Program-made: the position numbers and the translations under genes | The notes under the pieces: model-generated | Database searches by the model: none | What the model was told of the DNA's origin: nothing | The model's input: only the letters and a program-made list of their open reading frames with translations | IMG/VR virus record: IMGVR_UViG_3300043438_000288 | Location: 1 to 42,797 of that record | From: a virus | Direction: 5' to 3' (one strand) | DNA: 42,797 bases | Shown here: piece by piece, positions 1 to 42,797 of the stretch | How positions within the stretch are numbered: the stretch's first letter is position 1 | How the letters are laid out: every line of letters begins with the position of its first letter

Positions 1-1
1 T

Positions 2-1417
2 TTCGTTTCTGGTGCTCTTCGCCCAGGTACTAGCCCAGAGCAGATTCGTTCGCTTCGTGCTTCGGCTCCATCAGGAGACTGGCGACCAATCCGCGGGTCG
101 CTTGAACTTGTAGCCGTATGCCAAGTGAATGTTCCTGGCTTCCCGATTGCTCGTGCTCGTGTAGCGTCTGGTGCTGTTATGGCTCTAGTTGCTGCTGGCG
201 CGGCAACACTAGCCAAGATGAAATCTGACCCAGTAACCGAACTAAACGCTCGTATCAAGAAGTTGGAAGCCTACTCGGTTGCTGACAAACTTGACAAGGT
301 TGAAGAAATCAAGGCTAAGTTCGCTGAGTTCAAGACCGCTAAGGAAGTAAACCTAGTTGTAAAGGCTCAAGAACTATCTGAGCGTTTTCAGGCTGTAACT
401 GCTGGAGCACAAGAAGAGGATGTATTTGCGTACATTCCTATGATTGAGCGTCAGAAGTTGGCTAAGTCAGGTAAGGCTCTTCCAGGTGGCTCTTTCCCAA
501 TCCGAGACACTGAAGACCTACAAAACGCTATCCGCGCTTTTGGTCGTGCCAAGGAGTCAGACCGTGCCGATGTAAAGCGTCACATTATCAAGCGTGCTCG
601 CGCTCTTGGTAAGTATGACCTAGTACCTGAAAACTGGAAGAAGTTCTCATCTAAGGCTGTAACTGCCAGTGCCGACGAACTAAAGGCTCGTCTAGCATCT
701 GCGGAGGAACGCCTGGGAAAAGCACAAGCGACTGAGTTTGCTGAAGTACCTGCTATGCCTGGAACAACTGAAATTCCATCTGGAGTTTCTGCTGTCCCAC
801 AGCAGGTTGCTTACGACCCAGCAAGCCCAGTCGCACCCGCTCAGCCAGAAGCCCCAACCGAAGCACCATCTAACGATGTTGAGAGCGGTTTGAAGAATCC
901 AGAAACTGGAAATTACACACCGCAAACTCAGCCTCGCGACCAGAATGGAAAGTTCCGTCAGGTTCTTGCTCGTTTGAAGCAAGACCTCGGAACTGCTGGT
1001 CTACAGAGAGTTTTAGATGAGGCAAAATCAGTAGACAAACTACACTCTCTAGGTAGTTATGTAGAGGCAGCAAATGCCAGCGTCAATCTTCAAGACATTC
1101 TTGGAAGACTTGACTCTGGAGCCTTGAACAGTAAAGCCCTAGAAAATGTTCGTAATTCTGCTAAAGAACTTGGCACGGTAATTGCCAACCTACCATTAGG
1201 TTTCAATAACCAAGCCGAAAAGGTCAGATACTCTGACCTGCCACCAGCCCTACGCGACCTCATGGACAACATGATTGACAAGGTTGAGGCAAAAATTGGT
1301 AAAGAAGATGCTGACATTGCTACCGAAAAACTCAGACAATTCAAGAGTGGTTCCGATGTCTTCAACCAGAGCAACATTTCGTCAGAAATGTCGAAGATGC
1401 TCCGCTTGCTTACCTAA
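2..1417 (+). CDS. Capsid maturation protease, 5'-truncated, with DUF6582-like domain and helical tail
   Basis: The reading frame is open from the first bases of the window, so the gene starts upstream; 471 residues are visible. An in-frame GTG at 125 is probably not the real start because the frame before it is also conserved protein. The visible N-terminus (residues about 2-60, with SGALRPGTSPEQ, SAPSGDWR and VNVPGFPIAR) matches the core of actinophage capsid maturation proteases, which cleave scaffold and capsid during head assembly. It is followed by a charged helical stretch, then a segment (about residues 147-207; KSGKALPGGSFPI, FGRAKESD, HIIKRARALGK) resembling the DUF6582 domain, a Pro/Ala-rich linker and a helical C-terminus that could act as scaffold. 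It precedes the major capsid gene with a 145-bp gap. The protease family assignment rests on recognised motifs; the scaffold role is inference. The catalytic residues cannot be checked because the N-terminal part is missing. Confidence 0.75.
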   Translation, partial: FVSGALRPGTSPEQIRSLRASAPSGDWRPIRGSLELVAVCQVNVPGFPIARARVASGAVMALVAAGAATLAKMKSDPVTELNARIKKLEAYSVADKLDKVEEIKAKFAEFKTAKEVNLVVKAQELSERFQAVTAGAQEEDVFAYIPMIERQKLAKSGKALPGGSFPIRDTEDLQNAIRAFGRAKESDRADVKRHIIKRARALGKYDLVPENWKKFSSKAVTASADELKARLASAEERLGKAQATEFAEVPAMPGTTEIPSGVSAVPQQVAYDPASPVAPAQPEAPTEAPSNDVESGLKNPETGNYTPQTQPRDQNGKFRQVLARLKQDLGTAGLQRVLDEAKSVDKLHSLGSYVEAANASVNLQDILGRLDSGALNSKALENVRNSAKELGTVIANLPLGFNNQAEKVRYSDLPPALRDLMDNMIDKVEAKIGKEDADIATEKLRQFKSGSDVFNQSNISSEMSKMLRLLT

Positions 1418-1562
1418 AACTAAATAATAGACATAAGAAATCTATTGTAAAATAAAACTTAGGTGGAGTGCCTTCATACCTGTATTTGTGTATGTAGTCC
1501 CTTTGCTTAAACCAAGCAAGTGAGTGAAATACGCTCACTACAACTGTCCTTAAGGAGGAACA
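1418..1562 (+). promoter_or_regulatory. Leader region of the major capsid gene
   Basis: This 145-bp gap precedes the capsid gene. It contains an AT-rich stretch with GTAAAATA at 1447-1454 that could be a -10-like element (the same octamer occurs at 10032-10039 ahead of the tail chaperone), a small hairpin GUGAGUG/CGCUCAC at 1520-1538 with one G-U pair and loop AAATA, and a strong Shine-Dalgarno AAGGAGG just before the GTG start at 1563. A promoter here would suit a heavily expressed capsid gene, but no clear -35 box is visible, so this is a weak inference. Confidence 0.35.
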
Positions 1563-3581
1563 GTGGACCAAATTAAGTCGCAGGTCGATACCCTGTCTGA
1601 ACTTAGTGATGAGCAAGTCTCAGAACTTCAGACCGCTATCGTTAGCGAATTTGAGAAGGTCGAGTCTCAGGACATTTCTCCAGAAACAGTTGACGCTATG
1701 TCATCCCTCGCCGATATGCTGGACACCGTAAAAGGTGACATCCAGCGTAGAGAACTCCAAGCAGAGGAACTCGCTTCGCGTGCTTCTGAAGCCGCGATGC
1801 GCGTTAAGGGTGAGGGTGAAGGCGATGTGGCTCAGGGTGAAGGTAACGATGTTGCCCCAATGGAAGAAGTAGTTCCAACCGACGAGCCAGTCGTTCCTGC
1901 TGAGGAAGAACCAAAGCCAGAGGGTGAAATGGGCGAAATGCCTGTTACTCCTGAGGATGAGGATTCCCCAGTACCTGCTGAAGAAGAGGAAGAGAAAAAG
2001 CCTATGATGGGCGAATACTCGACTGACACTGCTGTAGAAGCGTCAATTACTACTGAAGAGACCCTAGAGTTCTCAACCGATGCTACCCCAGAGGTAGTAG
2101 AACCAACCGAGGCTGACGAAATCGTCACCGAGGAAGCAACCCCAATCGAAACTCCAACCGTTGAAGAAGTTCAACAGGAAGAACAGGTTCCCGTGACCGC
2201 AGCAGCAGAAGAGGGCTTCCAAGCCCCTGTTGACCGTCAGCCTGTTATCCAGGTTAATGAAGTTGCTACAGTGGCAATCACTGCTGGCGCAGACATCCCA
2301 GGATACACAGCAGGTAGCACAATTGACAGCATCCAAGATGTTGCTGTCGCAATGGAGAAGAGAATTCACTCTCTTCGCCGTGTAAATGGTGGAGATGGTG
2401 AACAGCACATCGTTGCTTCGTTCTCTACCTCTTACCCAGAAGAGAGAACCCTCTCAACCGACGCCGAGTCGAACAAGGCAAAGATTGATGCCGTAGTTGG
2501 CCAGCAAGCACTTATCGCTTCTGGTGGACACGCAGCACCATTCGAGGTCAAGTACGACATCTTCGGTCTAGGTTCGACCACTGACCGCCCAGTCCGCGAC
2601 CTTCTTCCGAAGTTCCAGGCTGACCGTGGTGGTGTTCGCTTCGTAACCCCTCCAACAATCATTAGCCTAACGAACGCAAACGCAAACGCTGCTTCGGTTT
2701 ACGACTACGCCAACGCTGTTGGTCTATGGAACGAAACCACCGCAACACCTAGCGTTGCATCGTTCACGAACGACATTGGTGACAGCACCACTACAGTCAA
2801 GGGAAGCCTTACTGTATCAGCCGCTGCCGAGAATGTTGCTCAGACTGACGCTGTAACCCTACAGTTGCAGTTCGGTAACCTAATGAGCCGTGCCTACCCA
2901 GAACTAATCGCTCGTCACAACGAGTTGGGTCTAGTACAGCACGCTCGTGAGGCAGAACTAAACCTAATCAACAAGATTGGAACCGCATCAAAGGCTGTAA
3001 ACGCCCACGCTGCTACCACTGAGGCAGCAAGCCTTATTGGTGTCGCTCGCGACTTCCTAATCCAAGTTCGCAAGGCTTCTGTTGCTTACCGTTCGCGTCA
3101 CCGTATGTCACCGCAGACTCGCCTAAAGGCGATTATTCCTGCGTGGATTTACGACGCTATGGCTTCTGACTTGGCTCTAAATATGCCAGGCGACGGAAAC
3201 CTAGGCGTAGGCGAGAACGAAATCAAGGGCTACCTAGCAGGAAGCAATGTCGACCTAGTCGCATCGCTAGACCTGAACTCGTTTGGTGCTCAGCCTGGCG
3301 CTTCTGCCAAGTTGCTTGAGTTCCCAGACTCGTTCTCTTGGTACCTATTCGCAGAGGGAACATTCTTGTTCCTAGACGGTGGAACTCTTGACCTTGGTAT
3401 TATCCGTGACTCATCACTGGTAAACACCAACGACTACAAGATGTTCATCGAAACCTTCGAGGGTATTGCCTTCGTTGGTGTGGAATCACTAAAGATTACC
3501 ACAAACATCAGCGTCAACGGTGTGGCTGCGGCTCTACGCGACACCACTGGTGGTGCAACCGCTGCTGCTATCGAAGAGTAA
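1563..3581 (+). CDS. Major capsid protein with long acidic N-terminal extension
   Basis: This 672-residue protein is the probable hexamer-forming major capsid protein (HK97 fold). The GTG start is supported by AAGGAGG a few bases upstream. Residues 1-75 are predicted helical and charged; residues about 80-215 are a low-complexity Glu/Pro/Val/Thr stretch (for example VPAEEEPKPE and EEEEEKKP); from about residue 219 (FQAPVDRQPV) the sequence becomes a globular capsid-like domain with typical capsid motifs such as TDRPVRDLLPKFQADRGGV and VGVESL near the end. Its position directly after the maturation protease and its length support the call. The N-terminal third resembles a fused scaffolding (delta) domain that the protease would remove; the cleavage site cannot be read from the sequence. 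Other actinophages have capsid proteins with this helical, acidic N-terminus. Confidence 0.8.
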   Translation: MDQIKSQVDTLSELSDEQVSELQTAIVSEFEKVESQDISPETVDAMSSLADMLDTVKGDIQRRELQAEELASRASEAAMRVKGEGEGDVAQGEGNDVAPMEEVVPTDEPVVPAEEEPKPEGEMGEMPVTPEDEDSPVPAEEEEEKKPMMGEYSTDTAVEASITTEETLEFSTDATPEVVEPTEADEIVTEEATPIETPTVEEVQQEEQVPVTAAAEEGFQAPVDRQPVIQVNEVATVAITAGADIPGYTAGSTIDSIQDVAVAMEKRIHSLRRVNGGDGEQHIVASFSTSYPEERTLSTDAESNKAKIDAVVGQQALIASGGHAAPFEVKYDIFGLGSTTDRPVRDLLPKFQADRGGVRFVTPPTIISLTNANANAASVYDYANAVGLWNETTATPSVASFTNDIGDSTTTVKGSLTVSAAAENVAQTDAVTLQLQFGNLMSRAYPELIARHNELGLVQHAREAELNLINKIGTASKAVNAHAATTEAASLIGVARDFLIQVRKASVAYRSRHRMSPQTRLKAIIPAWIYDAMASDLALNMPGDGNLGVGENEIKGYLAGSNVDLVASLDLNSFGAQPGASAKLLEFPDSFSWYLFAEGTFLFLDGGTLDLGIIRDSSLVNTNDYKMFIETFEGIAFVGVESLKITTNISVNGVAAALRDTTGGATAAAIEE

Positions 3582-3605
3582 AAACTCTTTTAGCAAAAGC
3601 AAAAC

Positions 3606-3651: not shown

Positions 3652-3684
3652 AAAACTAAATTTTTATAAACCTAAGGATTTTAA

Positions 3685-4773: not shown

Positions 4774-4792
4774 CAATAAGGAGAACAGCCCA

Positions 4793-5923
4793 ATGGCTAC
4801 TCAAGAATATGCTGCTAGCATCCAAGGCGTGTCAATCCGTGTCACACGCCTAGACGCTGCTGGCAACCTGCTAAACGGGGCTGGTGACTCTTACACTACT
4901 TCAGCCTTCCTACGCGTTTCGTTTACCCCAGAGTATGAGGAAGGCGATGAAATCACCGAGAAGTCAGCAAACGGCACGGTTTGTGTGACATACAAGGCTC
5001 CAGACACACTGAAGCGTATCACTATGGAACTCGCAATCTGTGAGCCAGATGCTGAACTCTCACAACTTCTATCTGGCGGTCTACTTCTTCGTAAGAATGT
5101 AGATGGCGTCGTAAAGAGCGTTGGTTGGGCAGCACCTGGTGTGGGCGATGACCCAGCAGGTCACGGTGTCGCTATCGAGGCTTGGTCTCACGCAGTCAAG
5201 GATGGTAAGCGTGCTTCTGTATTGCCTTACTTCCACTGGGTCTTCCCATATGCCAAGTTGCGTCAATCAGGTGACCGTGTAATTGAAAACGGTATGCTAG
5301 CCACAACCTTTGAGGGTTATGGTCTTGGAAACCGCAACTTCGAGTCAGGCGTAGATGGTCGCTGGGAGTTCCCAGTTGCCGCAGAGCGCCCTTACTCGTA
5401 TGCTCGCGCATCTTGGGCACCTGTGGGTCTACAAGGCTTCTACACTTGGACTGACAACTCTGGAGACGCATCGTTCTTTACCGCTGGTGGAAACATTCAG
5501 GGTCAGACCACTCCTTACATCACCTCTGTTACAGCAGTCAACACTACAGCCACTGTTATCTTTAGCGCGGCTCACAACATTGCTACTAGCGACAAGGTAT
5601 ATGTATCTGGCACTGGCGAGCCTTTCAACACCATCACTTCTGGTGTTGCTGCTACCAATGTCAACTCGACTGCAATCTCGTACACCATCGCAAATGTTGG
5701 TGGTACCACTCTTACAGCCACTCTTGACAAGTTCAGCCGTGTGTCACTTGTTGACTCTGCTACTGAGGGTGACCCTAGGTACCTTGCAGTCACTACCACA
5801 GCAATCGACACCAAGTACTCTAATGCTAGCGGAGATGTTGAGGCTGGTTACAATGTTCCTGGTAACTTGGACTACAACGCTGACTCGAATGTCGACTTTA
5901 TCATCAAGTCAAACGAAGACTAA
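4793..5923 (+). CDS. Major tail tube protein A
   Basis: This 376-residue protein is one of two adjacent paralogues. The start is preceded by AAGGAG. Residues 1-226 (MATQEYAASIQGVSIRVTRL to FYTWTD) are about 96% identical to the next gene and form the presumed tube domain. Residues about 242-302 carry a beta-module (FSAAHNIATSDKVYVSGTGE), and the last 70 residues (TATLDKFSRV to FIIKSNED) are again shared with the paralogue. Major tail proteins with a C-terminal Ig-like or beta-module decoration are common in siphoviruses. The assignment rests on position between capsid and tape measure, size and probable high expression; no tube-specific catalytic motif exists to confirm it. Confidence 0.65.
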   Translation: MATQEYAASIQGVSIRVTRLDAAGNLLNGAGDSYTTSAFLRVSFTPEYEEGDEITEKSANGTVCVTYKAPDTLKRITMELAICEPDAELSQLLSGGLLLRKNVDGVVKSVGWAAPGVGDDPAGHGVAIEAWSHAVKDGKRASVLPYFHWVFPYAKLRQSGDRVIENGMLATTFEGYGLGNRNFESGVDGRWEFPVAAERPYSYARASWAPVGLQGFYTWTDNSGDASFFTAGGNIQGQTTPYITSVTAVNTTATVIFSAAHNIATSDKVYVSGTGEPFNTITSGVAATNVNSTAISYTIANVGGTTLTATLDKFSRVSLVDSATEGDPRYLAVTTTAIDTKYSNASGDVEAGYNVPGNLDYNADSNVDFIIKSNED

Positions 5924-5938
5924 GGAGAACTGTTCTAA

Positions 5939-7498
5939 ATGGCAACTCAGGAATACGCAGCCAGCATTCAAGGTGTGTCTATTCGCGTAACGCGACTAGA
6001 CGCCGCTGGCAACTTGCTAAATGGTCCAGGTGACTCGTACACCACATCTGCGTTTATGCGTGTGTCTTTCACACCAGAATACGAAGAGGGCGACGAGATT
6101 ACCGAAAAGAGTGCCAATGGAACTGTATGTGTAACTTACAAGGCTCCTGACACTCTCAAGAGAATCACTATGGAGTTGGCTATCTGTGAACCAGACGCTG
6201 AACTTTCTCAGTTGCTCTCTGGCGGTCTCTTGCTTCGCAAGACCGTTGACGGCGTTGTGAAGTCTGTTGGTTGGGCTGCTCCAGGCGTCGGAGACGACCC
6301 TGCTGGAAATGGTGTAGCGATTGAAGCATGGTCGCACGCTGTGAAAGATGGAAAGCGCGCGAGCGTTCTTCCGTACTTCCACTGGGTCTTCCCTTACGCA
6401 AAACTTCGTCAGAGTGGTGACCGCGTTATCGAGAACGGTATGTTGGCTACCACATTTGAGGGCTACGGTCTAGGCAACAAGAACTTCGGTTCTGCTGTTG
6501 ATGGTCGTTGGGAATTCCCTGTAGCCTCTGAGAGACCGTACTCTTACTCAAGAGCATCTTGGGCACCTGTCGGACTTCAAGGATTCTATACTTGGACTGA
6601 CCAGGCTTCTTACCAGTCATTCTTCACTATCGGTGGGATTCAAGGTGCTACCACGATTGCTATAACTGGCATTAGTGGCTACGATAATTACCGCGCTGTG
6701 ACTCTAGGTAGTAGCACTGTTACCTCTGGAATTGCCAATGGAGACAAGGTTTATGTCAACAACTGTGGCGAGCCATTCAACACCAGCACAGTGGGCGAAT
6801 CAGTAACATCGTTGAACTATGTCGCTGGCACCGCTACGGCAAATGTGACAGCATCAAATACCACCATCACTGTTGCTAACACCGCTGGTTATGTTGTTGG
6901 TCAGGACATCTTCCAATTGAGTGGGACTGGGACACTTTCCAACACCACGATTGCCACAGTAGTAAATGCTACTGCTTTCACTGTAACCGCAGCACCAAGC
7001 GCAAGCGGTACTTTGACCTTTGGTCTAGTCGGTATGGGTGCTACTGCGAATGTGGCTGTATCAAATACTACTATTCAAGTGGTCAGCACTGCTGGTCTAG
7101 TTCCTGGTATGACTATTGCCAAACTCGTTGGTGGTGCCTCTCTTGCCAACACTACAATTGCAACTATTGTAAATGCAACAGCATTTACAGTAACTACTGC
7201 TCCTACAGTTCTTGGAAACCTAGCATTTAGCATCAATGGTGGAAACGCTTTCTACTATTCAAACTACCCAACCACTGCCAACTTGTCATCTGCTCTAACA
7301 GCAACCCTAGACAAGTACAGCCGTGTAAACCTAGTTGATAGCATCACCGAGGCTGGCTCTTACACCCCAGTCACCACAACTCAGATTGACACTCAGTATG
7401 CTAACGGTGCTGGTGAAGATACTTACAATGTCCCTGGCGGATTGAACTACAACGCCGATGCAAATGTTGACTTCATTATTAAGTCAAACGAGGACTAA
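5939..7498 (+). CDS. Major tail tube protein B, paralogue with tandem insert
   Basis: This 519-residue protein starts 15 bp after protein A, with TAAGGAG overlapping the preceding stop codon. Its first 220 or so residues differ from A at only about nine positions (for example A30P, L40M, N102T, H123N), yet most codons differ synonymously. The extra length lies in the C-terminal half: two tandem repeats of about 69 residues (nt 6827-7033 and 7037-7243; shared motif SNTTI, NTTIATxVNATAFTVT) are inserted inside the region equivalent to A's beta-module, after the shared motif GEPFNT. The C-terminus NVDFIIKSNED matches A. The two proteins probably co-assemble in, or differentially decorate, the tail tube; which one is the main tube protein cannot be told. 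Confidence 0.65.
   Translation: MATQEYAASIQGVSIRVTRLDAAGNLLNGPGDSYTTSAFMRVSFTPEYEEGDEITEKSANGTVCVTYKAPDTLKRITMELAICEPDAELSQLLSGGLLLRKTVDGVVKSVGWAAPGVGDDPAGNGVAIEAWSHAVKDGKRASVLPYFHWVFPYAKLRQSGDRVIENGMLATTFEGYGLGNKNFGSAVDGRWEFPVASERPYSYSRASWAPVGLQGFYTWTDQASYQSFFTIGGIQGATTIAITGISGYDNYRAVTLGSSTVTSGIANGDKVYVNNCGEPFNTSTVGESVTSLNYVAGTATANVTASNTTITVANTAGYVVGQDIFQLSGTGTLSNTTIATVVNATAFTVTAAPSASGTLTFGLVGMGATANVAVSNTTIQVVSTAGLVPGMTIAKLVGGASLANTTIATIVNATAFTVTTAPTVLGNLAFSINGGNAFYYSNYPTTANLSSALTATLDKYSRVNLVDSITEAGSYTPVTTTQIDTQYANGAGEDTYNVPGGLNYNADANVDFIIKSNED
6827..7243 (+). repeat. Tandem repeat of about 69 codons in tail protein B
   Basis: Two consecutive copies of a Thr/Ala/Val-rich beta-module are seen in the translation, both ending in a version of NTTIATxVNATAFTVTxAP. 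The copies are similar in protein but clearly diverged in DNA, so this is an old duplication. The copies lie at about 6827-7033 and 7037-7243. Confidence 0.75.
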
Positions 7499-7510
7499 TA
7501 GTTAGATAGG

Positions 7511-7575: not shown

Positions 7576-8682
7576 ATGACTGCTTTATGGATTCAGCCAG
7601 AAGAGTTGGGCGACTACGCCAACTCTGAGTATGCGCTGGAGGCTGCTAAGACTGCATCTCATCTTTTATGGGCTATGTCTGGTCGTAAATATTCAGGAGA
7701 AACTATTGTCACGGAACGCTACACTTGTGTACTTCGTCGCTCCCGTTTAGGCTCCTCCAACAAAAACACAGACGGCGTTTTGTTTGGTGGGACTGTCTAC
7801 AACATTCCGTCTGCCGATTTTGACTACGACGAGTACTCTTCTCTAACCGTAGACGGTATCTCACCTGAATCTAGAATCAAGTTGCGTGGCGGTCCAGTAA
7901 CTAGAATCATCACAATCAGAAACCGAAACGGTTCTTTGATTGACCCAACAAGTTATTACTTAGTGGACCACTCGACTATCCATGTGAGCCTAGCCACTCC
8001 TTGGACCCCTTGTAATACTGAAGTTACTTATGCTTATGGTCAGAACCCACCTACATCTGGAAAAATGGCAGCCCGCACGCTAGCCATTGAATTTGCCAAG
8101 TTGTGGTCTGACGATGAAACTTGCGCTCTCCCGCAACGCGTAACTTCTGTCTCGCGACAAGGTGTCTCTTTCACTATTCTTGACCAGCAGGACTTTATTC
8201 AAGAACTGCGTACTGGTCTTTATGCTGTTGACTTGTTCCTAAAGACTGTCAACCCAGATGGTGCTAGAAGGAAGACTAAGGTCTACTCTGTAGACACCCC
8301 GCGAGCCAGAAGATACAACCCTAAGGAACTGGTCTACACAACTGGCGTAAAAGACCTAATTGTCCCACCTGGTTCGGGCAACACTGGAACTGTGACTTTA
8401 GGCTTAGCAAACATCAATGCCACTTTCTTGACTAGCCAAGCAGGTTGGACACCAGCCCTAACTATCAAGAGTTACTCAGGCATTAAGTCTCAGACTCTCG
8501 CTAACACTTCGGCAAATGTCAATACCTCGGCTTCTACAATCACCCTGTCCTCTGGCTATTCAGAAACACTGGCCACCATAGGTATGGTCGACCCCGGCAC
8601 TTGGGACTTATACGCTACCCACACAAATAACAGCGTTGTGCTGATTACTAGCGGAAACCTAAAAATCAACCTAAACGGTTAG
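7576..8682 (+). CDS. Head-to-tail adaptor with C-terminal beta domain
   Basis: This 368-residue protein has AAGGA ahead of its start. Residues 1-250 resemble the adaptor (gp6/gp15-like) proteins that sit under the portal: a helical N-terminus (WIQPEELGDY, EAAKTASHLLWAMSGRKYSG), a central beta region (VTRIITIRNRNG, STIHVSLATPWTPCNTEVTY), and a helical section (GKMAARTLAIEFAKLW, RVTSVSRQGVSFTILD) ending at LRTGLYAVDLFLKTVNP. Residues about 260-368 form an additional Ser/Thr/Asn-rich beta domain of immunoglobulin type, probably exposed at the neck. It is unusual that the adaptor follows the tail tube genes. Assigned from motif resemblance and from the neck genes that follow it. Confidence 0.65.
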   Translation: MTALWIQPEELGDYANSEYALEAAKTASHLLWAMSGRKYSGETIVTERYTCVLRRSRLGSSNKNTDGVLFGGTVYNIPSADFDYDEYSSLTVDGISPESRIKLRGGPVTRIITIRNRNGSLIDPTSYYLVDHSTIHVSLATPWTPCNTEVTYAYGQNPPTSGKMAARTLAIEFAKLWSDDETCALPQRVTSVSRQGVSFTILDQQDFIQELRTGLYAVDLFLKTVNPDGARRKTKVYSVDTPRARRYNPKELVYTTGVKDLIVPPGSGNTGTVTLGLANINATFLTSQAGWTPALTIKSYSGIKSQTLANTSANVNTSASTITLSSGYSETLATIGMVDPGTWDLYATHTNNSVVLITSGNLKINLNG

Positions 8683-10839: not shown

Positions 10840-13800
10840 ATGCCAGTAGTTGGTGAAGCCCATATTATTGTTAGGGCTATCACTACCAATGTTGCCAAAG
10901 ACATCAGAAATGGTTTCAATGGCGTAAGTGGTAGTGGTGGCAAGAACGCACAAAAAGCAGGTGAAAACCTATCTTCAAAGTTTATGCGTGGCTTTAACAA
11001 AGGCTCAGAAATAAACTTCTTGACTGGAATCTCTAAGGGCTTACAAGAGATGACCCCGAGTGCTCAGCAGGGGTATGAAACAATAAATCAGTTAATTGTG
11101 ACTGGCTATAAGGGTACAGTGATGGCTAGCGCCTTTGCTGGGGCTATTGGAGTCATAATTGGTGCTCTTGTTACATTAGTCGCTGCCGCTGCTGGTGCTG
11201 CCACATCGTTAACCGCAGTAATCGGTCTATTCATATCAATGAAGGCTGCTTCGGCGGTAGCCAAATTTGCCATGAATGGCGTAGGCGAAGCGGTTCAACA
11301 AGCAACACAGCAACAAAAAACTCAAGTAGAGACTCTAAAAAATTTACGAGAGGAACTACAGCAACTAAAATTTGATGCCGAAGACGCCGCTCTTGCCGAA
11401 GAAAACGCTGCCATTGCCTTAGAAAAGGCTCGTGAGGGTCTCGCCAGAACTGCTGATTTGCCAGCAGACTCCCGTGCTCGTCGCGAGGCAGAAATTGCTT
11501 ATAAGCAAGCGGACCTAAACTATCGTCGCGCTAAAGATAGAAGCGCTGACCTCAATGAAGAACTTAAGACTGGGGCAAAGGCTAGAGCCAAGGCTGCCTC
11601 TCAAGACCCATATGCCAACCTCACCAACACTCAAAAGGGGTTTGCCAAGTTTCTTGTAAAACTACAGCCAATTTTTAAGAACCTAAGGGAAGTGGTAGCG
11701 CAAGGTTTCTTGCCAGCGTTACAAAACGGGCTTACTCAACTAATTACTTCTGGGACTTTCAATGACATTTTTAACGGAATCAAAAGCATTGGTGATGCCC
11801 TAGGAAAAGCAACAAAAGTTGTATTTGACTTCTTCTCCTCGGCTGAGGCTGGAAGATATCTAAGAGAAATCTTTGAAACTATTTCTCAGGTTACAAAAGA
11901 GTTTGGACCTATTCTCTCTAAGTTCTTTAAAGCGTTCCTAAAAATTCTTGCCGCCTCCTCTCCAATTGTTCTGAGGCTTGCTAACTTTATTTCTAGAATT
12001 CTCGGGGACTTCAATGAATTACTAGATGCCACTGGCGATGTTGGTCTTCGCAAATTCTTTATCACAGCCGCTGATATGGCTGGCAAGTTTGGCAAGATTT
12101 TTGGCAACATTTTTGGCGGGTTTTCCAAGATTGTTATGGCTAACTTTGGTCCTGGTACTGGTGGAGACTATCTCCTCAACTGGTTGATTGAGGCTACTCA
12201 GGGCTTTGGCACAATGGGCAAGAGTGGTGGAGACCTAAAGACTTTCTTCAATGGCGTTGCTCTAAACGCTAAAAAAATGTTTAGCGGTATTGGTAGCATC
12301 ATCGAGCAAATTGTCAAGATTGGTGCTGACCCTAACATCGGTGCTTTCTTTGAAAAAATTAAGGAGGCTTCTCCATATTTCAGTAGCATCTTGAAAAAGG
12401 CTGGACAAGCACTACCTACAGTTGCAACTTTGATTGTAAAAATTGTTGAGATTATTGACAAACTTACAGACGACGCTGCTATTGACAACTTCTTCAAAAC
12501 CTTGGTTGCTGGTGCTGATGTGTTTAGCAACATACTTGGTAACCCAGTTGTGAAGAGCATTATGGCGTTTACTGGTCAAATCAAGGCTGTAACGCTAGGT
12601 GTTGGTGAAATTGGCAAAAAGGCTAAACCAGTATTTGACTTCCTGACCCAAACTGTTACAAATGTTACTGGGTTCTTCGGTAAAGCCCAAGAAGTAATTA
12701 CTGGCACAAAAGAAGCGTTTGGCACCGTTGTAACAGTAAACGCTGGGCTAAGGAGCGCTGTAAAGAAGACTACCGACAGTTTCAAAGCAGCAGCAAAGAT
12801 ATGGCCTAAGTTCTCAAGCGGTGTAAACCAAGCCAGAGACTTTACTGGACTTTTATCTAAGCAAACTGGAGCGTTTATGAAAAACGCTACAGAAGGTACT
12901 CGCAAACACCTTAACGGGAACACGATGCTTGTTAGAGGTTATGGTCGCCTAAAACTCGCCATTGAGACTACAGCCCTAAGATTCAAACTATTTAAGATTG
13001 GGTTCCTAAAAGGATTCACTCAGATGGCTGCTAGCCAGAACAAGTCTATTGCCCTGTTTGGAAGAATGGGTGTGGCTATGATGGCGGCTAACCCTATCCT
13101 GCTAATTATCGGTCTGATTGTTGCCGCCTTTGCTGTGTTGTTCACAACAAATGAAAAATTCCGCAATCAAATAATTGAAACATTCCAGCCAGCCCTAGAA
13201 GCACTAAAAGAGGCTTTTGCGACAATTATGGTTGCCCTACAGCCAGTGATTCTTTCTTTCAAGTACCTTATGGAGACTCTTTTTGGTGGCTCCAACGGCG
13301 GTGGCGGTCCCCTAACTAAATTCTTTGTAGTTTTGGCTGAAGTCATTAGCAAACTTGTAGTTGCCCTAGCACCACTTATTGCTAACTTGATTAGCAAGTT
13401 GATGCCAATTGTAGAGAAATTACTTCAAATTCTCATTCCGATTGTTGAAATATTTATGACGCTTGTAAGCGGAATATTAGAGGCACTTGCTCCTGTACTT
13501 ATCGTTCTTGCTGACGCATTTGGCGCAATTGTGACTGTAATTATGGACCTATTGATGCCAGTAATTGACGGTCTTATGGGATATCTGATGCCACTGTTCA
13601 CTTTCTGGACTCAGATGATTCAACTTATTGCTGGATTCTTTGAGGCTCTATTCTCTGGCGACTGGGATAAGTTTGGGAAACTATTCCGCGACTTGGGTCA
13701 AGGAATTGTTCAGTCTTTGGCTGATATGTTTACTGGGTTCATCAACCTACTAATCACCTTGTTGAATATGCTATTCAAGGTTGCAATGTTGCACCCGCTT

Positions 13801-14178
13801 ATCGGGTTCCTAGCAGACACTGTAAACGCTTTGTCTGGTGGTGCTATTGACATTAGGGCGGCCGTTGACCAAGGTCTAATTCCACCTGTGCCTCGCTTTG
13901 TAGTTCCGCAACTTTTCGCTGAGGGTGGTATTGTCTCCCCGTCTGCTGGTGGAACTCTAGGTATTATTGGTGAGGCTGGTAGACCAGAGCGCGTTGAGCC
14001 ACTTGACCCAGACGGACTTTCTAAGAGAGACAAGGCAATGATTGAAATGATGAGTGGCGGTGCTGCTGGCGGAATCAATGTCACCGTAAACGGAACTCCA
14101 GATATGGATGTCAACGCTCTTGCTGCCGAAGTAAGCCGAAGACTTGCTTTCCAAATGCGTAAAGGTGCTGCTATCTAA
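10840..14178 (+). CDS. Tape measure protein
   Basis: This 1,112-residue protein is preceded by a near-perfect Shine-Dalgarno (AAGGAGGTGA). It contains an N-terminal Gly-rich region, a hydrophobic stretch at about 93-145 (Ala/Gly/Val-rich), a coiled coil at about 150-247 (many Glu/Ala/Arg heptads), long amphipathic repeats with regularly spaced Phe/Ile (for example FGKIFGNIFGGFSK), a membrane-like segment at about 744-780, and a long hydrophobic stretch at about 843-937. The C-terminus has the classic tape measure ending (LFAEGGIVSPSAGGTLGI, GEAGRPERVEPL). The family spans the tail lumen and sets tail length; about 1.5 angstrom per residue would give a tail near 165 nm, a rule-of-thumb estimate. 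No lysozyme or peptidase motif was recognised in it. Its stop overlaps the next start (TAATG). Confidence 0.92.
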   Translation: MPVVGEAHIIVRAITTNVAKDIRNGFNGVSGSGGKNAQKAGENLSSKFMRGFNKGSEINFLTGISKGLQEMTPSAQQGYETINQLIVTGYKGTVMASAFAGAIGVIIGALVTLVAAAAGAATSLTAVIGLFISMKAASAVAKFAMNGVGEAVQQATQQQKTQVETLKNLREELQQLKFDAEDAALAEENAAIALEKAREGLARTADLPADSRARREAEIAYKQADLNYRRAKDRSADLNEELKTGAKARAKAASQDPYANLTNTQKGFAKFLVKLQPIFKNLREVVAQGFLPALQNGLTQLITSGTFNDIFNGIKSIGDALGKATKVVFDFFSSAEAGRYLREIFETISQVTKEFGPILSKFFKAFLKILAASSPIVLRLANFISRILGDFNELLDATGDVGLRKFFITAADMAGKFGKIFGNIFGGFSKIVMANFGPGTGGDYLLNWLIEATQGFGTMGKSGGDLKTFFNGVALNAKKMFSGIGSIIEQIVKIGADPNIGAFFEKIKEASPYFSSILKKAGQALPTVATLIVKIVEIIDKLTDDAAIDNFFKTLVAGADVFSNILGNPVVKSIMAFTGQIKAVTLGVGEIGKKAKPVFDFLTQTVTNVTGFFGKAQEVITGTKEAFGTVVTVNAGLRSAVKKTTDSFKAAAKIWPKFSSGVNQARDFTGLLSKQTGAFMKNATEGTRKHLNGNTMLVRGYGRLKLAIETTALRFKLFKIGFLKGFTQMAASQNKSIALFGRMGVAMMAANPILLIIGLIVAAFAVLFTTNEKFRNQIIETFQPALEALKEAFATIMVALQPVILSFKYLMETLFGGSNGGGGPLTKFFVVLAEVISKLVVALAPLIANLISKLMPIVEKLLQILIPIVEIFMTLVSGILEALAPVLIVLADAFGAIVTVIMDLLMPVIDGLMGYLMPLFTFWTQMIQLIAGFFEALFSGDWDKFGKLFRDLGQGIVQSLADMFTGFINLLITLLNMLFKVAMLHPLIGFLADTVNALSGGAIDIRAAVDQGLIPPVPRFVVPQLFAEGGIVSPSAGGTLGIIGEAGRPERVEPLDPDGLSKRDKAMIEMMSGGAAGGINVTVNGTPDMDVNALAAEVSRRLAFQMRKGAAI

Positions 14179-27432: not shown

Positions 27433-29256
27433 ATGACAAGTGGTTTGGCTAATACCCAACTTCACCTAGTAAACAGCGTAGAAAAGGCTGGGGATTTCCT
27501 AACTTGGCTAAGCCAGAGACGCCCTCACGATGCTATTGCTATTGACACCGAAACTGGTGAACTACCCGGTCGCCCCCGCAAAGATGCTTTATCTCCTTGG
27601 CACGGAAGACTCCGTCTAGTCCAAGTAGGAGACGGTGAGCAAGGCTGGTCTATCCCTTGGGATGAATGGTCTGGAGTTTTCTATCAAGCGATGGATAAGT
27701 TTGACGGTCAGATTGTTTGCCACAACATTGCGTTTGAGGCTAAGTGGTTTGAGATGCAATCCCGTTGGTCTATGCCGTGGCATCGTGCTCACGACACAAT
27801 GATTATGTCGCAGATTATTGACCCTATCGGCTCCGCTGCCCTCAAGCGTTTGACTTCTCAGTATGTCGACCCTAAGGCTGCTGCCCTACAAAAGCACTTA
27901 GATGATTCTCTACACGAGAACGGTTGGACTTGGGGTACTGTCCCAGTCAACTTTGAGCCTTACTGGTCTTATGGTGCGTTGGATACTGTGCTCACTATGA
28001 AATTGTTTGAGCGTTTTTGGGAGCAGTGCGGTCCCAATCAGATTTACTCCGTGCCTTATGAACTTGAAATGGCAACTCGCAAGATTGCTACTCGTATGGA
28101 ACTCAACGGTGCTCGTGTTGACCTTGACTACTCGCAAAAGAAGTTTGACGAACTAAACGACTATGGCGAAAGTGTCCGTAAGTGGGGTTTTGAAACTTAC
28201 GGTGGTTCCATCACAAGCAATATTCAGTTGGTTCGCATACTTGAAAAACTAGGTGCTGACATTACCGAGACAACTCCGTCGGGGCAGAAGTCGGCGTCTA
28301 AGGACCAACTGATGATGCTGGTTCGCGATGGGTCGCCTGAGGTTCAGCAGTTGGCTGAGGTTGTTCTAAAACAACGCAAAGCGGATAAGTTGGCAAACAC
28401 TTACTTCAAGAACTTCCTTGAGGGAAACATCAATGGAATTGTCCACCCATCTATTCGTACCCTTGCGGCACGAACTGGGCGTATGTCTATCACCGAACCT
28501 GCCCTACAGACTTTGCCGTCTGGAGACGCTACTGTTCGTCGTGCTTTTATTCCTAAAGATGAAGACCACCTAATCATTTCTTCTGACCTTGACCAAGTCG
28601 AGTTCCGTCTTACAGCGAACCTTAGCCAAGACCAAGACCTAATCAATCTGTTCAACGAGGCTGACCGCACTGGTGGAGATGTGTTTACTGAGATTATGCG
28701 TCAGGTATACCAAGACCCGACAGCGCAGAAGTCAGACAACCGACGCAAACTTATCAAGGGTGTAGTTTATGGAAAGTTGTACGGTGCTGGTGTAGCGACT
28801 ATGGCACTGACCGCTGGAGTAGCAGATGCTCAGATGAAGTCGGTTGTAGATGCTTTTGATTCTAGTTATCCTGGTGTCCGTCATATGGCTCAGGCTATTG
28901 AAGATGCTGGTATGCGTCGCCTCAAGACCGAGGGTTCTGGCTATGTAAAGACTAGAACTGGTCGCCGTCTGCCTTGCGATGATGACCGTGTGTATTCGCT
29001 GACTAACTATTTGATTCAAGCAAGTGCTGCTGAAATCTTCAAACAAAACCTAATCAAACTTGACCAAGCAGACTTGACTGAGTATTTGATTGTCCCTGTT
29101 CACGATGAAATTGTTTTGAATGTTCCAAGAGAGGGCTACGAAGACATTATGCAAACTGTAAAGCAATGTATGACAACTACAGAGGGTTGGGATGTCCCGC
29201 TCACCGCTGGTGTAGACGGTCCGTTTGAGAACTGGGGGAGCAAGTACGATGAGTAA
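27433..29256 (+). CDS. Family A DNA polymerase with 3'-5' exonuclease domain
   Basis: This 607-residue protein is a phage replicative polymerase of the Pol I family. The exonuclease domain has Exo I AIDTETGEL (D38, E40), Exo II CHNIAFEAKWFE, where Glu stands at the usual Asp place, and Exo III YGALDTVLTM. The polymerase domain has motif A SDLDQVEFRL (near residues 382-391), motif B RRKLIKGVVYGKLYGAG (near 436-452) and motif C VPVHDEIVL (H557, D558, E559). There is no separate 5'-3' exonuclease domain, as is usual in phages. The 3' end overlaps the RuvC-like gene by 8 bp. It leads the replication block in one direction with no gaps large enough for a separate promoter. Confidence 0.95.
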   Translation: MTSGLANTQLHLVNSVEKAGDFLTWLSQRRPHDAIAIDTETGELPGRPRKDALSPWHGRLRLVQVGDGEQGWSIPWDEWSGVFYQAMDKFDGQIVCHNIAFEAKWFEMQSRWSMPWHRAHDTMIMSQIIDPIGSAALKRLTSQYVDPKAAALQKHLDDSLHENGWTWGTVPVNFEPYWSYGALDTVLTMKLFERFWEQCGPNQIYSVPYELEMATRKIATRMELNGARVDLDYSQKKFDELNDYGESVRKWGFETYGGSITSNIQLVRILEKLGADITETTPSGQKSASKDQLMMLVRDGSPEVQQLAEVVLKQRKADKLANTYFKNFLEGNINGIVHPSIRTLAARTGRMSITEPALQTLPSGDATVRRAFIPKDEDHLIISSDLDQVEFRLTANLSQDQDLINLFNEADRTGGDVFTEIMRQVYQDPTAQKSDNRRKLIKGVVYGKLYGAGVATMALTAGVADAQMKSVVDAFDSSYPGVRHMAQAIEDAGMRRLKTEGSGYVKTRTGRRLPCDDDRVYSLTNYLIQASAAEIFKQNLIKLDQADLTEYLIVPVHDEIVLNVPREGYEDIMQTVKQCMTTTEGWDVPLTAGVDGPFENWGSKYDE

Positions 29257-36756: not shown

Positions 36757-37098
36757 ATGAAAGATTCACGCAAAGGCGAAACTCTATGGAGTGAGTGGTT
36801 CGGCAACGGCTACTCAAAAGAAACTCCAGAGTCGCTAGTCTTCTACACGGAAGACCATGTAGACATCCATAACGAAATAGTGAGACGCGCTCTAGCCTCT
36901 GCCATACAGCGAGACGGTACAACCGACTCTCTTGGCGAGGCTTTTCGTCTACTAGACGGTCCAGTATTAGTTAGTCACGGCTACGCTGGATTTATTGATG
37001 AAGAACTCACCCAATGTGATAAAGACGCAATGACAGCCTACGAAGACGAGGCAGAAAGCGTTCTACACATCACTTGGGTTGAGATAAATGGCAATTGA
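36757..37098 (+). CDS. Hypothetical protein
   Basis: This 113-residue protein is not recognised. It is acidic and rich in aromatic residues near the start (LWSEWFGNGY), with a helical middle (DIHNEIVRRALASAIQRDG) and a beta-containing end (AESVLHITWVEINGN). It has no signal peptide or membrane segment. It overlaps the whiB-like gene by 11 bp, so the two are probably translated together and may be functionally linked. The ribosome binding site is partly inside an inverted repeat. Confidence 0.6.
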   Translation: MKDSRKGETLWSEWFGNGYSKETPESLVFYTEDHVDIHNEIVRRALASAIQRDGTTDSLGEAFRLLDGPVLVSHGYAGFIDEELTQCDKDAMTAYEDEAESVLHITWVEINGN

Positions 37099-37555
37099 CG
37101 ACACTAACTGGCAAAGTGAGTCGCTCTGTGCCAAAAAAGAAAATGAGCACATGATTGAGTGGTTCTTCTCTGAAGAACCTGAGGAAAAGTATGCTGCTAA
37201 AAACTTATGCTTTAGTTGCCCTGTAAGAAAGGACTGTATCAAATATGCCCTTGAGCAAAAAGAAATTTGGGGTGTTTGGGGTGGCAGAGATGAAAACGAG
37301 ATTCGTAGGATTCTATCTGTCGATGCTAACGGTGACGAATATCGCAGAGGTCGCTACCCTCAGTGTCCTTTCTGTTTCGCTCGTACTAGCAAACTAAAGA
37401 CATACATTGTTGACTTGCCAGGTGGTGGTCGGTGGACTACCGCTCGTATGGTTGAGTGTACCGATTGTGGATTTGCTTGGCGTAGTCGCACAAGTGCCAA
37501 TGCGGTAAATGCTTATCACGCTCAGAAGAGCGACAAGAAAAAGCCTAAGAAGTAA
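37088..37555 (+). CDS. whiB: WhiB-family regulator fused to a C-terminal zinc ribbon
   Basis: This 155-residue protein has the four cysteines of a WhiB iron-sulfur cluster (C14, C41, C44, C50; FSCPVRKDC) and the hallmark turn WGVWGG (residues 61-66). WhiB proteins bind sigma factor SigA through the Fe-S domain and regulate transcription; phage WhiB proteins can alter host gene expression. After a linker there is a second metal site, CPFC (93-96) and CTDC (124-127) with Trp and Gly around it, as in zinc ribbons, and a basic tail (QKSDKKKPKK). Typical phage WhiB proteins end soon after the GVWGG region, so the ribbon is an extra domain. It ends 3 bp from the convergent metallophosphoesterase gene. 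Confidence 0.9.
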   Translation: MAIDDTNWQSESLCAKKENEHMIEWFFSEEPEEKYAAKNLCFSCPVRKDCIKYALEQKEIWGVWGGRDENEIRRILSVDANGDEYRRGRYPQCPFCFARTSKLKTYIVDLPGGGRWTTARMVECTDCGFAWRSRTSANAVNAYHAQKSDKKKPKK

Positions 37556-37558
37556 GTT

Positions 37559-39033: not shown

Positions 39034-39083
39034 AAGTAAATCCTTTGGTCAGTTGTGTCATTTTTTATCCTACCTTATAGCGG

Positions 39084-39425: not shown

Positions 39426-39629
39426 GGGCTAAAATAGAACTCTCACTTTGGTCTTCATAATGAAGAAGTCTTATGTATTAGTTTATCTAATAAACGAAAA
39501 GCCTATTTTTTCTTTTTGAAATTGGCGGCTTTGCTTGCTCTTTCTGAAATACAAAGTGCTACTATGGTGAGACTAGAACAACAAAAAATGATTGAGAGAC
39601 GGGTACCGTGGAGAGGCTTTTAGACACTG
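39426..39629. promoter_or_regulatory. Divergent intergenic region between leftward trio and prim-pol gene
   Basis: This 204-bp region separates the only leftward genes from a rightward gene, so it should contain promoters for both. It has a palindrome CTTCATAATGAAG at 39453-39465, an inverted repeat GTTTAT/ATAAAC at 39481-39495, a T-rich run at 39505-39516, and an extended -10-like TG-C-TACTAT at 39557-39565 on the plus strand. A -35 (TTGCTC) is possible at 39535-39540, but the spacing of 19 bp is long. A 19-codon ORF at 39564-39623 just before the prim-pol ATG may be chance. Confidence 0.5.
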
Positions 39630-42257
39630 ATGTCATCTGACCACATTGAAAGATTAAAAAAGGCAACCGATTGGTATGCCAAACAGGGGTGGAAAGTTCT
39701 TCCTTGCTACGGAATCAATGATTCTGGTCGCTGTACCTGTAATGGGCAACACGATGAACCTAAAGATGTGGGTAAGCACCCAGCCATTGGCGATTGGAAC
39801 ACCCGTGCTACCGATGAAGAAAATGTAGTACAGACTTGGTGGAACAACTCCCCTGAGCACAACATTGGCGTTGTCTGTCAGAAGTCTGGATTCTTTGTAA
39901 TTGATGTTGACCCTCGTTCTGGTGGCATCGACTCTTGGGAAAAGTTCCAAGAACTTATGGAGTATGACTTACCTGAAACCGTGGAAGCCTACACTGGTGC
40001 CTACACATACAGTGGTAAGAACTCTCGTGGTCGTCACATCTACTACAGAATTGCTGATAGCGAGAAACTAATCGGAAACCTGAAGACTCTAAATCTTCCA
40101 GGTATTGACATTAAGCACAACGGCTATGTCTTGCTTGCCCCGTCTCGCCACTTCTCTGGCGTGAACTACGAGTGGGTTGACGGTAAGGCTCCTTGGCAGA
40201 TTCCTATTGCGGAAGCCAATGAAAAACTGCTTTCAGTTTTGCGTAAAGGTGGTCGTAGAAACAGCGGGACTTCTCTTGGGGTCTATGACTGGGACTCTAT
40301 TACTGACTTAGAGTACCGCGGTGAGTCTGTAGACATCGCCAAGTTCCTTGAAGAAGGAATTGAAGAGGGCTCTCGTGCGGTAGATATCTATAAGTTGGCT
40401 TGTGCGCTTGCGAACAAGATGGGCGTTGACACTGAATACAAGCGTATGGCAATTGAAACGCTGATGATTCGCTTCAACTATGAAAAAGTTCGCCCGCCTA
40501 TGGAACTTGAGGGACCTAACTCTCTGCTAATGCACACTCGTCGTGCGATTGAGTTTGTCTCTGAAAATCCTGTCACCGAGCGTATCTGGCCAGGACTACA
40601 AACTTGGGCTGAGCAGAATAAGTCCCAAAATGGGATTACATATCAAGGTCAGACTGAGCGCGAAAGCACATCTGACCCAGATGATATGGAGATTTATCAG
40701 AGCACTGACTTACACGGAACCGTTGGCGGTGCTGTAGACGAGGCTGCTCGTAATGGAATCTCTATTGCCGAGGCTTTTGGTTCTGGCGATATCGATATTC
40801 CTAAAGACCCAGACGCAATCACTGAAGCAGAGGGTGGAACTCCAGGCAAGCGTTCACTCTCCGACATCGGTAATGGTCGTCGTCTTGTGGATTCTTTTGG
40901 TTCTTCTATCCGCTATACGCCTGGCATCGGCTGGTTTATTTGGAACGGTCAGTATTGGAAATCTGATGCTGAAGATTTAGGTATGCAGGAGTTGGCTAAG
41001 AAATTGGCTCCTATTATTGCTTCCGAAGTGTCGCAGTATGACGACCCAGATAAGAAAAACGATGTAGTCAAATGGGCTAACCAAGCCAAGGCTAATGGTC
41101 GCCTAAACGGTGCCATTGAGAGTTCCAACTCTGACCCCAGAATCACCACTTCGGTTGACAGTTGGGATGGCGACAAGCACCTGCTAGGTGTCGCAAACGG
41201 CGTAGTAGACCTCAAGACAGGCGAACTAATCAAGGGTAAGCCAGAACTCCACATCACCAAGAGAGCGCCTGTAGGGTACACACAGGGGCTCCGTAATGTG
41301 CGTTGGGAGCAGTTTATCGACTACGCCACTGGTGGCGATAAGGAACTTCAGGAGTGGCTACAGCGTGCTGCTGGGTACACCCTCACTGGGTTGAATACCC
41401 AAGATGTTATGTTCTTGGTTTACGGTCCACCAGGCTCTGGTAAGAACACATTTGTTGAAGCACTTGTAAAAGCATTAGGCACTCAGCAATACTCTTGGCC
41501 TTTGGATTCAAGCATCCTTGCTGCCAATGACGGCAACTCCAGTAGCACAGATTTATACCACTGGGCTGAGTTGCGTGGTCGCCGTATGGTTTGGGTTGAC
41601 GAGTTGCCAGACTCTGAGCGTCTAAAAGAGAACTCCGTGAAGAAACTAACTGGTTCATCTGAAATCTCTGCTCGTTCTCCGGGTGAGAAGCCGTTTACAT
41701 TTGAGTCCAGTGCCAAGTTGTGGGTTACTACTAACCACCGACCAATCATTACTGACGAGGCTATGTGGCGTCGTCTTCGACCGATTCCTTGGAGCAATGT
41801 TCCTGAGTCTCCAGACCCAGACCTAAAGGCTTACTTGTTTGACCCAGAGGGTGCTTTACCTGCTGTCCTGTCTTGGGCAGTCGAGGGTGCGATTCGGTAC
41901 TTGGGTTCTTCTGCTCGCGACCCTCTTGGTATGTGTTCTGCTGTCAAAGTTGCTAGCGAGATGTATCAAAAGAATGAAGACCGTATTGGTATGTTCCTTG
42001 AAGAAGAGACTAAAGAATCTAATGGTGGAGCGTTGGCAGTAAAGTCTCTATTCTCTGTCTACCGTATGTGGTCTGAAGACCGAGGTGAGCGGGCTATGAC
42101 TCAGATTGCGTTCCAGCGTAAATTGTCTGACCGTGGGCTGGACATTGTTGGTCAAGGTTCTCGTGCCGAGATTCAGAATATGGTTCTGATACCTAAGGCA
42201 GTACCGACATCGACTGATGTCAACTGGGATGCCATAACTAGATTTAACCGTTTCTAG
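39630..42257 (+). CDS. Primase-polymerase fused to D5-type superfamily 3 helicase
   Basis: This 875-residue protein carries a bifunctional primase-polymerase domain at residues about 10-200 (WYAKQGWKVLPCYGIND, HPAIGDWNTRATD, the catalytic VIDVDPR at about 90, and LPGIDIKHNGYVLLAPS). After a linker, residues about 430-800 form a D5_N/P4-type primase-helicase: VYGPPGSGKNTFVEAL (Walker A, about 597-612), MVWVDELPD (Walker B), ARSPGEKPFTFESSAKLWVT and the sensor TTNHRPI. Such proteins both unwind DNA and make primers. No strong Shine-Dalgarno is seen near the ATG at 39630. It sits far from the polymerase block but is likely part of the same replisome. Confidence 0.9.
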   Translation: MSSDHIERLKKATDWYAKQGWKVLPCYGINDSGRCTCNGQHDEPKDVGKHPAIGDWNTRATDEENVVQTWWNNSPEHNIGVVCQKSGFFVIDVDPRSGGIDSWEKFQELMEYDLPETVEAYTGAYTYSGKNSRGRHIYYRIADSEKLIGNLKTLNLPGIDIKHNGYVLLAPSRHFSGVNYEWVDGKAPWQIPIAEANEKLLSVLRKGGRRNSGTSLGVYDWDSITDLEYRGESVDIAKFLEEGIEEGSRAVDIYKLACALANKMGVDTEYKRMAIETLMIRFNYEKVRPPMELEGPNSLLMHTRRAIEFVSENPVTERIWPGLQTWAEQNKSQNGITYQGQTERESTSDPDDMEIYQSTDLHGTVGGAVDEAARNGISIAEAFGSGDIDIPKDPDAITEAEGGTPGKRSLSDIGNGRRLVDSFGSSIRYTPGIGWFIWNGQYWKSDAEDLGMQELAKKLAPIIASEVSQYDDPDKKNDVVKWANQAKANGRLNGAIESSNSDPRITTSVDSWDGDKHLLGVANGVVDLKTGELIKGKPELHITKRAPVGYTQGLRNVRWEQFIDYATGGDKELQEWLQRAAGYTLTGLNTQDVMFLVYGPPGSGKNTFVEALVKALGTQQYSWPLDSSILAANDGNSSSTDLYHWAELRGRRMVWVDELPDSERLKENSVKKLTGSSEISARSPGEKPFTFESSAKLWVTTNHRPIITDEAMWRRLRPIPWSNVPESPDPDLKAYLFDPEGALPAVLSWAVEGAIRYLGSSARDPLGMCSAVKVASEMYQKNEDRIGMFLEEETKESNGGALAVKSLFSVYRMWSEDRGERAMTQIAFQRKLSDRGLDIVGQGSRAEIQNMVLIPKAVPTSTDVNWDAITRFNRF

Positions 42258-42320
42258 ACTTAGATACTTACAGATATGTTGTAGAGTAAAAGAGTCTGGT
42301 TGCGGGAGAGTAACAAGACA

Positions 42321-42347
42321 GGGACTGGGGTCACAAGACCCCAGCCC
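42321..42347 (+). terminator. GC-rich hairpin after the prim-pol gene
   Basis: CTGGGGTC (42325-42332) and GACCCCAG (42337-42344) pair perfectly around the loop ACAA, and GGG (42321-42323) with CCC (42345-42347) extends the stem past one bulged A. No T-run follows (ACCTAATAG), so it may be a stabilising or processing element rather than a full intrinsic terminator. It lies in the 114-bp gap between the prim-pol gene and the glycosyltransferase. Confidence 0.55.
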
Positions 42348-42371
42348 CACCTAATAGAAAGATAAATACGC

Positions 42372-42797
42372 ATGAAAATTGTTATAGCGACACCTATGTA
42401 TGGTGGAAACTCTAAGAGCGTCTATGTATCTTGCCTCACTCAGTTGACTGGTGAATTGGCAAAGGCTGGGCACACTGTAAACATTATGTCCATCACCAAT
42501 GAAAGCCTCATTACTAGAGCGCGAAACACTCTTGCTCATATGTTTATGAAGAGCGACGGTGATGCTCTTCTATTCATCGATGGAGACCACGGTTGGGTAT
42601 CTGAAGACATCGTAAAGATGATTAACTCTGGTAAAGACCTTATCGGTGCCATCTACCCAATGAAGTCCATCAACTGGGACAACATCCGTGCCGCAGCGCT
42701 TGCTGGTAAGGAAAACCTAGAACTCTACTCTGGCAACTTTGCCGTCAACTTCCTACCTGAGCCTCAGAACTTCAAGGCTGATGAACCTTTCAAAGTT
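42372..42797 (+). CDS. GT-A-type glycosyltransferase, cut by window end
   Basis: The gene starts at ATG 42372 with AGAAAG upstream and remains open to the last base, giving 142 visible residues. MKIVIATPMYGGNS, then SLITRARNTLAHMFMKSDGD and LLFIDGDHGW (the D-x-D motif) match the phage-type GT-A glycosyltransferase fold. Such enzymes transfer sugars to phage DNA, tail or capsid proteins or host surface molecules; which one cannot be told. The 3' part is missing. With the possible GT-B enzyme near 34020 the phage would have two glycosyltransferases. Confidence 0.75.
   Translation, partial: MKIVIATPMYGGNSKSVYVSCLTQLTGELAKAGHTVNIMSITNESLITRARNTLAHMFMKSDGDALLFIDGDHGWVSEDIVKMINSGKDLIGAIYPMKSINWDNIRAAALAGKENLELYSGNFAVNFLPEPQNFKADEPFKV

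Follow-up and report, generated by a model that had tools for sequence, protein, structure and literature searches.

Stepwise erasure of many putative restriction sites in a lineage of uncultivated tailed actinobacteriophages

A fragment of a tailed actinobacteriophage genome

The stretch of DNA analyzed here (the window) is the complete IMG/VR record IMGVR_UViG_3300043438_000288, which comprises 42,797 bases and 36 predicted genes. Genes for capsid, tail, polymerase, helicase, recombinase, and primase proteins identify it as part of a tailed phage, and the host, judging from a WhiB gene, is an actinobacterium. This actinobacteriophage is uncultivated, and the window holds only a fragment of its genome. 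Given that the records of several relatives span 120 to 136 kb, it probably covers about one third of a ~130-kb genome. The features referred to below are the following.

1563..3581, plus strand: major capsid protein (phrog_777)
10840..14178, plus strand: tail tape measure protein
27433..29256, plus strand: DNA polymerase I, the marker for finding relatives and building the tree
37088..37555, plus strand: WhiB-family transcription factor (Pfam PF02467, E = 1e-16)
39630..42257, plus strand: DNA primase/helicase, among the genes of the site-fate alignments

The nearest matches of the WhiB protein are in phage DSL-LC01 and Microbacterium phages. The closest annotated relatives of the window are DSL-LC01 (OQ999401) and the Microbacterium phages Pumpernickel and Big4 (polymerase identity of 70%, 62%, and 59%, respectively), all of which share its gene order downstream of the polymerase. 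DSL-LC01 is an Actinomycetia phage of lake origin assembled from a metagenome (PMC10611076). The original prediction placed the host among low-GC freshwater actinobacteria; only the actinobacterial part is borne out, by the WhiB gene and by the closest annotated relatives, whose hosts are Microbacterium or Arthrobacter or are predicted to be Actinomycetia. Megablast of the first 25 kb of the window against phage records gave no match, and PADLOC found nothing in ten small window proteins. Two adjacent genes (4793-5923 and 5939-7498), the first of which matches major tail proteins, encode nearly identical N-termini (MATQEYAASIQGVSIRVTRLDAAGNLLNG...); this looks like a tandem duplication in which the second copy carries a diverged, longer C-terminal part.

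Absence of GATC, AGCT, ACGT, and further motifs

Inspection by eye had suggested that AGCT and ACGT, along with GATC, are missing from the window to an extent far beyond chance. Exact counts bear this out: all three are at zero, with 211, 107, and 109 copies expected, respectively, under a second-order Markov model. Permutation of synonymous codons over the 36 predicted genes, with every protein and the codon usage unchanged, yielded on average 234 ± 12 AGCT, 149 ± 9 ACGT, and 126 ± 9 GATC (z = -20, -17, and -15), so that random coding sequence of the same codon usage does not reproduce the avoidance. The three motifs are missing from all genes, in every reading frame, and from non-coding sequence. 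The palindromes listed in the original prediction as present do occur (CTAG, 204; AATT, 197; GTAC, 109; TCGA, 85; CGCG, 60; GCGC, 59; TTAA, 50), with TTAA, GCGC, and GTAC at 0.3, 0.47, and 0.61 of expectation, respectively. Counts fall short of expectation for most palindromic tetramers of the window; CTAG, AATT, and ATAT are close to it, as are the hexamers TCTAGA (15 observed/17.5 expected) and CAATTG (16/15).

The earlier observation nevertheless understated the phenomenon. It missed the strong depletion of CCGG (6/74), GGCC (14/119), CATG (21/126), and TGCA (43/171), the complete absence of GGACG/CGTCC on both strands (56 expected by codon permutation), and seven more motifs at zero, namely, DCCGGH, RCATGY, RGGCCY, ACTAGT, GCMKGC, GGSSCC, and CTGCAG. 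Also at zero are TTCGAA, CTCGAG, TGCGCA, GGCGCC, and CCATGG, for which expectations are smaller and some of which overlap other zero motifs. The 14 residual GGCC sites of the window (2499-41497) and those of its near-copy G001 are mostly TGGCCA, at 9 of 21 expected vs 6 of ~118 for GGCC in other contexts, yet TGGCCA stands at 0/74 in G009/G010.

We calibrated these absences by searching palindromic hexamer patterns, with some degeneracy allowed up to a limit; a motif was called when at least 12 copies were expected and no more than 2% of them seen. In the window genes, ten motifs were called, all at zero (AGCT, GATC, ACGT, DCCGGH, RCATGY, RGGCCY, ACTAGT, GCMKGC, GGSSCC, and CTGCAG), with expectations ranging from 12 to more than 200 copies each. 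The identical search called no motif in 20 synonymous permutations of the window genes or in the non-avoiding relatives G012, G014, L055, and L058, and five control sets of non-palindromic patterns of equal size produced a single call, CCGGTA, which is a piece of DCCGGH. The eliminated motifs are thus mainly palindromic, GGACG being the exception. In a 20-kb positive control from Staphylococcus phage K, GATC was found at 0/41 expected; like the window, this phage has no GATC, but it was the only motif called there. Calls of AGMKCT and GMGCKC were discarded as by-products of AGCT and GCGC avoidance. For bipartite (gapped) motifs, calibration against non-palindromic motifs of identical shape showed the excess to be mostly noise; GCCN5GGC (7/69 over three lineages), CCTN5AGG, and GATN4ATC remained low.

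Nested loss of motifs among relatives

Viral contigs yielded eighty relatives, and the erased set varies among sister phages, being empty in some of them. In two 135-kb relatives, G003 and G005, the observed/expected counts were 0/346 and 0/310 for GATC, 0/676 and 0/655 for AGCT, 0/338 and 1/353 for ACGT, and 0/74 and 0/86 for GGACG. Relatives G007 to G011 are also devoid of GATC and AGCT but retain near-normal numbers of ACGT (420/471 in G009) and GGACG. G013 and G014 avoid nothing, G012 displays only a partial depletion of GATC, and sister phages with ~70% nucleotide identity to the window have normal counts.

In the polymerase tree, loss of GATC and AGCT, together with DCCGGH, marks the base of a 13-row clade (support 98/94), and loss of ACGT, together with GGACG, marks an 8-row subclade that includes the window (support 100/98). 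The motif matrix places the losses of ACTAGT and GCAGGC at an intermediate node, and GCGC was lost separately in two places. The motif states require 11 changes on the tree, vs a mean of 18.7 after shuffling, and none of 200 shuffles was as low. Other branches again have no or almost no copies of GATC (L015, L022/L023, L043, and L064), and the same holds for TTAA in L043 and DSL-LC01. The subclade of the window is the only one in which ACGT and GGACG were seen to be lost completely. The original prediction had proposed either several restriction enzymes or one enzyme with a relaxed pattern. Because the motifs were lost at different nodes, with ACGT near normal in G007 to G011 despite zero GATC and AGCT, and with GCGC lost separately, a single relaxed enzyme does not explain the absences, and the proposal of several enzymes is supported.

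Codon alignments reveal the fate of individual sites. Of the ACGT sites present in G008 (53) and G009 (60), the window keeps not one, vs 11 of 52 kept between G008 and G009, neither of which avoids ACGT, and 25 of 57 for the pair G009 and G012. Most one-step losses affect third codon positions, and most are synonymous; for AGCT, 56 of 64 are synonymous, compared with 10 of 22 for AGCA. Of 26 inferred ancestral ACGT sites, none is left in the window, G003, or G005, and the replacement is usually identical in all three, as expected if the loss of ACGT preceded their divergence.

CCGG is spared only within CCSGG

The residual CCGG sites of the window follow a simple rule.

8594 (8594..8597), 17137, 21398, 25236, 27566, and 41679: residual CCGG, all inside CCCGG or CCGGG

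In the large relatives G003, G005, G009, and G015, CCGG outside of these contexts (that is, DCCGGH) is at zero, vs 132, 140, 136, and 86 expected, respectively (0/~494 in total), whereas CCGG inside CCCGG or CCGGG occurs 56, 66, 50, and 59 times, vs 64, 68, 68, and 51 expected, and is thus near normal (231/~250 in total). In the window, the exempt context is itself low (6/24). Tolerance of CCGG only inside CCSGG matches what protection by overlapping CCSGG methylation would predict; under such protection, selection would have removed unshielded CCGG only. We tentatively entertain, without placing even odds on it, the extended reading that site erasure was accompanied either by a CCSGG methylation shield, provided by the host or by an unrecognized phage enzyme, that hides overlapping CCGG from the cutter, or by a host enzyme with a hitherto undescribed DCCGGH specificity. 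Which of the two accounts for the exemption is unresolved. The string 'DCCGGH' was not found in a search of the open literature, and the exemption may be new.

PF01555 methyltransferases with a DPPY motif, as is typical for adenine methyltransferases, are encoded in G003, G005, and G009; the motif suggests that they target adenine and, hence, they are not obvious sources of a CCSGG shield. No matches to C5-cytosine (PF00145), D12 (PF02086), or Dam methyltransferases were detected in these three genomes, and no PF01555 enzyme was found in G015, a partial record. Avoiders also carry methyltransferases: G003 and G009 each encode one large PF01555 enzyme, and G005 has two adjacent large genes of this family (G005:C1:51265-54496, in L090; 427 and 651 aa). 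Phage methyltransferases were rejected as the cause of motif loss since PF01555 enzymes are present not only in strong avoiders but also in G017/G019, which are low in GATC alone.

Origin of the erased sites

Elimination of sites is an established anti-restriction strategy of phages, complete or nearly complete in about one tenth of the viral genomes surveyed (Rusinov et al. 2018, PMC6286503). We consider it very likely that the lineage of the window, an actinobacteriophage with a ~130-kb genome, purged the sites of many host Type II restriction enzymes. An unprotected site would expose the genome to cleavage on entry, such that mutants lacking it would be favored until none was left, mostly through synonymous changes at third codon positions, and newly arisen sites would then be purged by selection. 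Successive ancestors would have met new enzymes and added motifs, presumably starting with GATC, AGCT, and DCCGGH, followed by ACTAGT and GCMKGC, then by ACGT and GGACG in the subclade of the window, and by GCGC in separate branches. Absence of the motifs, its calibration, phylogenetic nesting, and synonymous replacement are direct observations; the agent and the identity of the hosts are inferred. The inference of host Type II enzymes is a strong one because many of the motifs erased in this phage family coincide with known Type II specificities (GATC, AGCT, ACGT, GCGC, TTAA, RCATGY, CTGCAG, ACTAGT, GRCGYC, GRGCYC, and RGCGCY), but no host enzyme has been identified, and a polymerase scan of genome contigs for the host returned only weak, distant matches in Bacteroidota and no actinobacterial host. 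Several further points count against this explanation. GCMKGC, GGSSCC, and DCCGGH are not known to match any enzyme, and the partial depletion of TTAA, TGCA, and CATG (0.2 to 0.3) requires a weaker or past pressure. Furthermore, GGACG is asymmetric, while known avoidance mainly concerns orthodox Type II sites (PMC6286503). A Type III system for GGACG was considered and disfavored: such systems need two sites in opposite orientation, which argues against one here, given that GGACG is at zero in both orientations.

The alternatives fare poorly against the same data. Codon usage, codon-pair bias, or dinucleotide composition could in principle empty a genome of motifs without selection on DNA, and the high coding density of the window and the membership of AGC and ACG in common codons lend this idea some initial appeal; however, permutation restores 126 to 234 copies without a single call in 20 replicates, the absence ignores reading frame and extends to non-coding sequence, and sister phages have normal counts, so that we give it virtually no weight. 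The same applies to a general avoidance of palindromes, whether as hairpins, cruciforms, or recombination sites: it would fit the deficit of most palindromic tetramers but not the near-normal CTAG, AATT, ATAT, TCTAGA, and CAATTG, the lineage-specific and sometimes empty erased sets, the non-palindromic GGACG, or the sparing of CCGG inside CCSGG, and can be practically dismissed. An artefact of assembly, library preparation, or masking, for instance, restriction digestion before sequencing, might be suspected because every record with the absence set of the window is a metagenome assembly. Yet L076, which shares its metagenome of origin (3300023174) with the avoiders L003 and L008, is unaffected (GATC 69/63, AGCT 41/34, ACGT 79/81), which excludes a library artefact; moreover, avoiders come from several different samples, and aligned orthologs span the lost sites with mostly synonymous changes, leaving hardly any room for this possibility.

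Mutation at methylated bases, which would remove sites by deamination rather than by selection, draws on the observation that, between G009 and the window, C-to-T outnumbers every other one-step change at ACGT (24/45). At GATC, however, T-to-C leads (24/46), with only two of 46 changes being C-to-T or G-to-A, which argues against cytosine deamination as the cause, and the changes that removed AGCT include A-to-T, A-to-G, and T-to-A. For the non-avoided ACGA, the share of C-to-T is similar (22/40), yet 31 of 86 sites are kept, and zero copies in 270 kb are not expected from mutation pressure alone; we therefore regard this route as extremely improbable. Slightly less remote, albeit still very unlikely, is that nucleases of the phage itself cut host DNA at these motifs, such that the phage genome must lack them. 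Phage nucleases that attack the host are known in general, and the genes of the 135-kb relatives are not all annotated, but at least ten specificities changing from lineage to lineage would be needed, and no endonuclease of these specificities was seen among the window genes searched.

Comparison with known cases and implications

As in the cases surveyed by Rusinov et al. (2018), palindromic Type II sites are wholly eliminated here from a double-stranded DNA phage; unlike in those cases, at least ten motifs are at zero in one genome, losses accumulate in a nested manner, an asymmetric motif (GGACG) is included, and CCGG is sharply exempted in one context. Site erasure itself is known. What sets the present case apart is how many specificities are involved, the nested order of their loss, and the exemption of CCGG; these features and the asymmetric motif go beyond the known cases that could be found, in the open literature only. 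With respect to potential hosts, the available portion of a study of freshwater actinobacterial phages mentions restriction enzymes in the genome of the host 'Ca. Planktophila' LanE-43, without specificities there, and reports 'Ca. Nanopelagicales' strains to be without CRISPR-Cas (PMC10202952). The Lake Biwa metaepigenome reported no methylated motif for hgcI genomes (PMC6329791).

Erasure of restriction sites is usually described motif by motif. The present phage family, with at least ten specificities erased in one genome, nested on the tree, and next to sister phages with none, makes the restriction arsenal faced by each ancestor inferable, and erased sets could help in pairing phages with hosts that offer no CRISPR spacers. 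As the CCGG exemption suggests, absence patterns alone can disclose methylation or the flanking-base specificity of an enzyme; if either the shield or the DCCGGH reading is true, motif erasure reveals, to the single base, the restriction and modification specificities present in uncultured hosts. Synonymous choices at erased sites are fully constrained, which is relevant to codon-usage analyses of such phages.

Erased sets also differ among the more distant relatives. DSL-LC01 has erased TTAA and ATAT (0/80 and 0/96 expected, respectively, in 100 kb; L144-L145) but, unlike the window, has normal GATC, AGCT, and ACGT. Pumpernickel and Big4 have erased RGATCY, GRGCYC, CTCGAG, and others, sets that differ from that of the window. 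In G020 (L135-L136), TTAA and GATC are both at 0/96 expected, so that G020 and DSL-LC01 have separate erased sets within one family. In G019 (L128-L134), GATC is erased only as DGATCH (0/223), and all ten leftover GATC sites have C before or G after them, a second context exemption resembling that of CCGG. Finally, the 135-kb relatives encode a tmRNA (G003, L083 12691-13036; G005, L090 8972-9311), with the tag peptides AESRSAFALAA and AESRSAFALVA, respectively, which could aid host identification.
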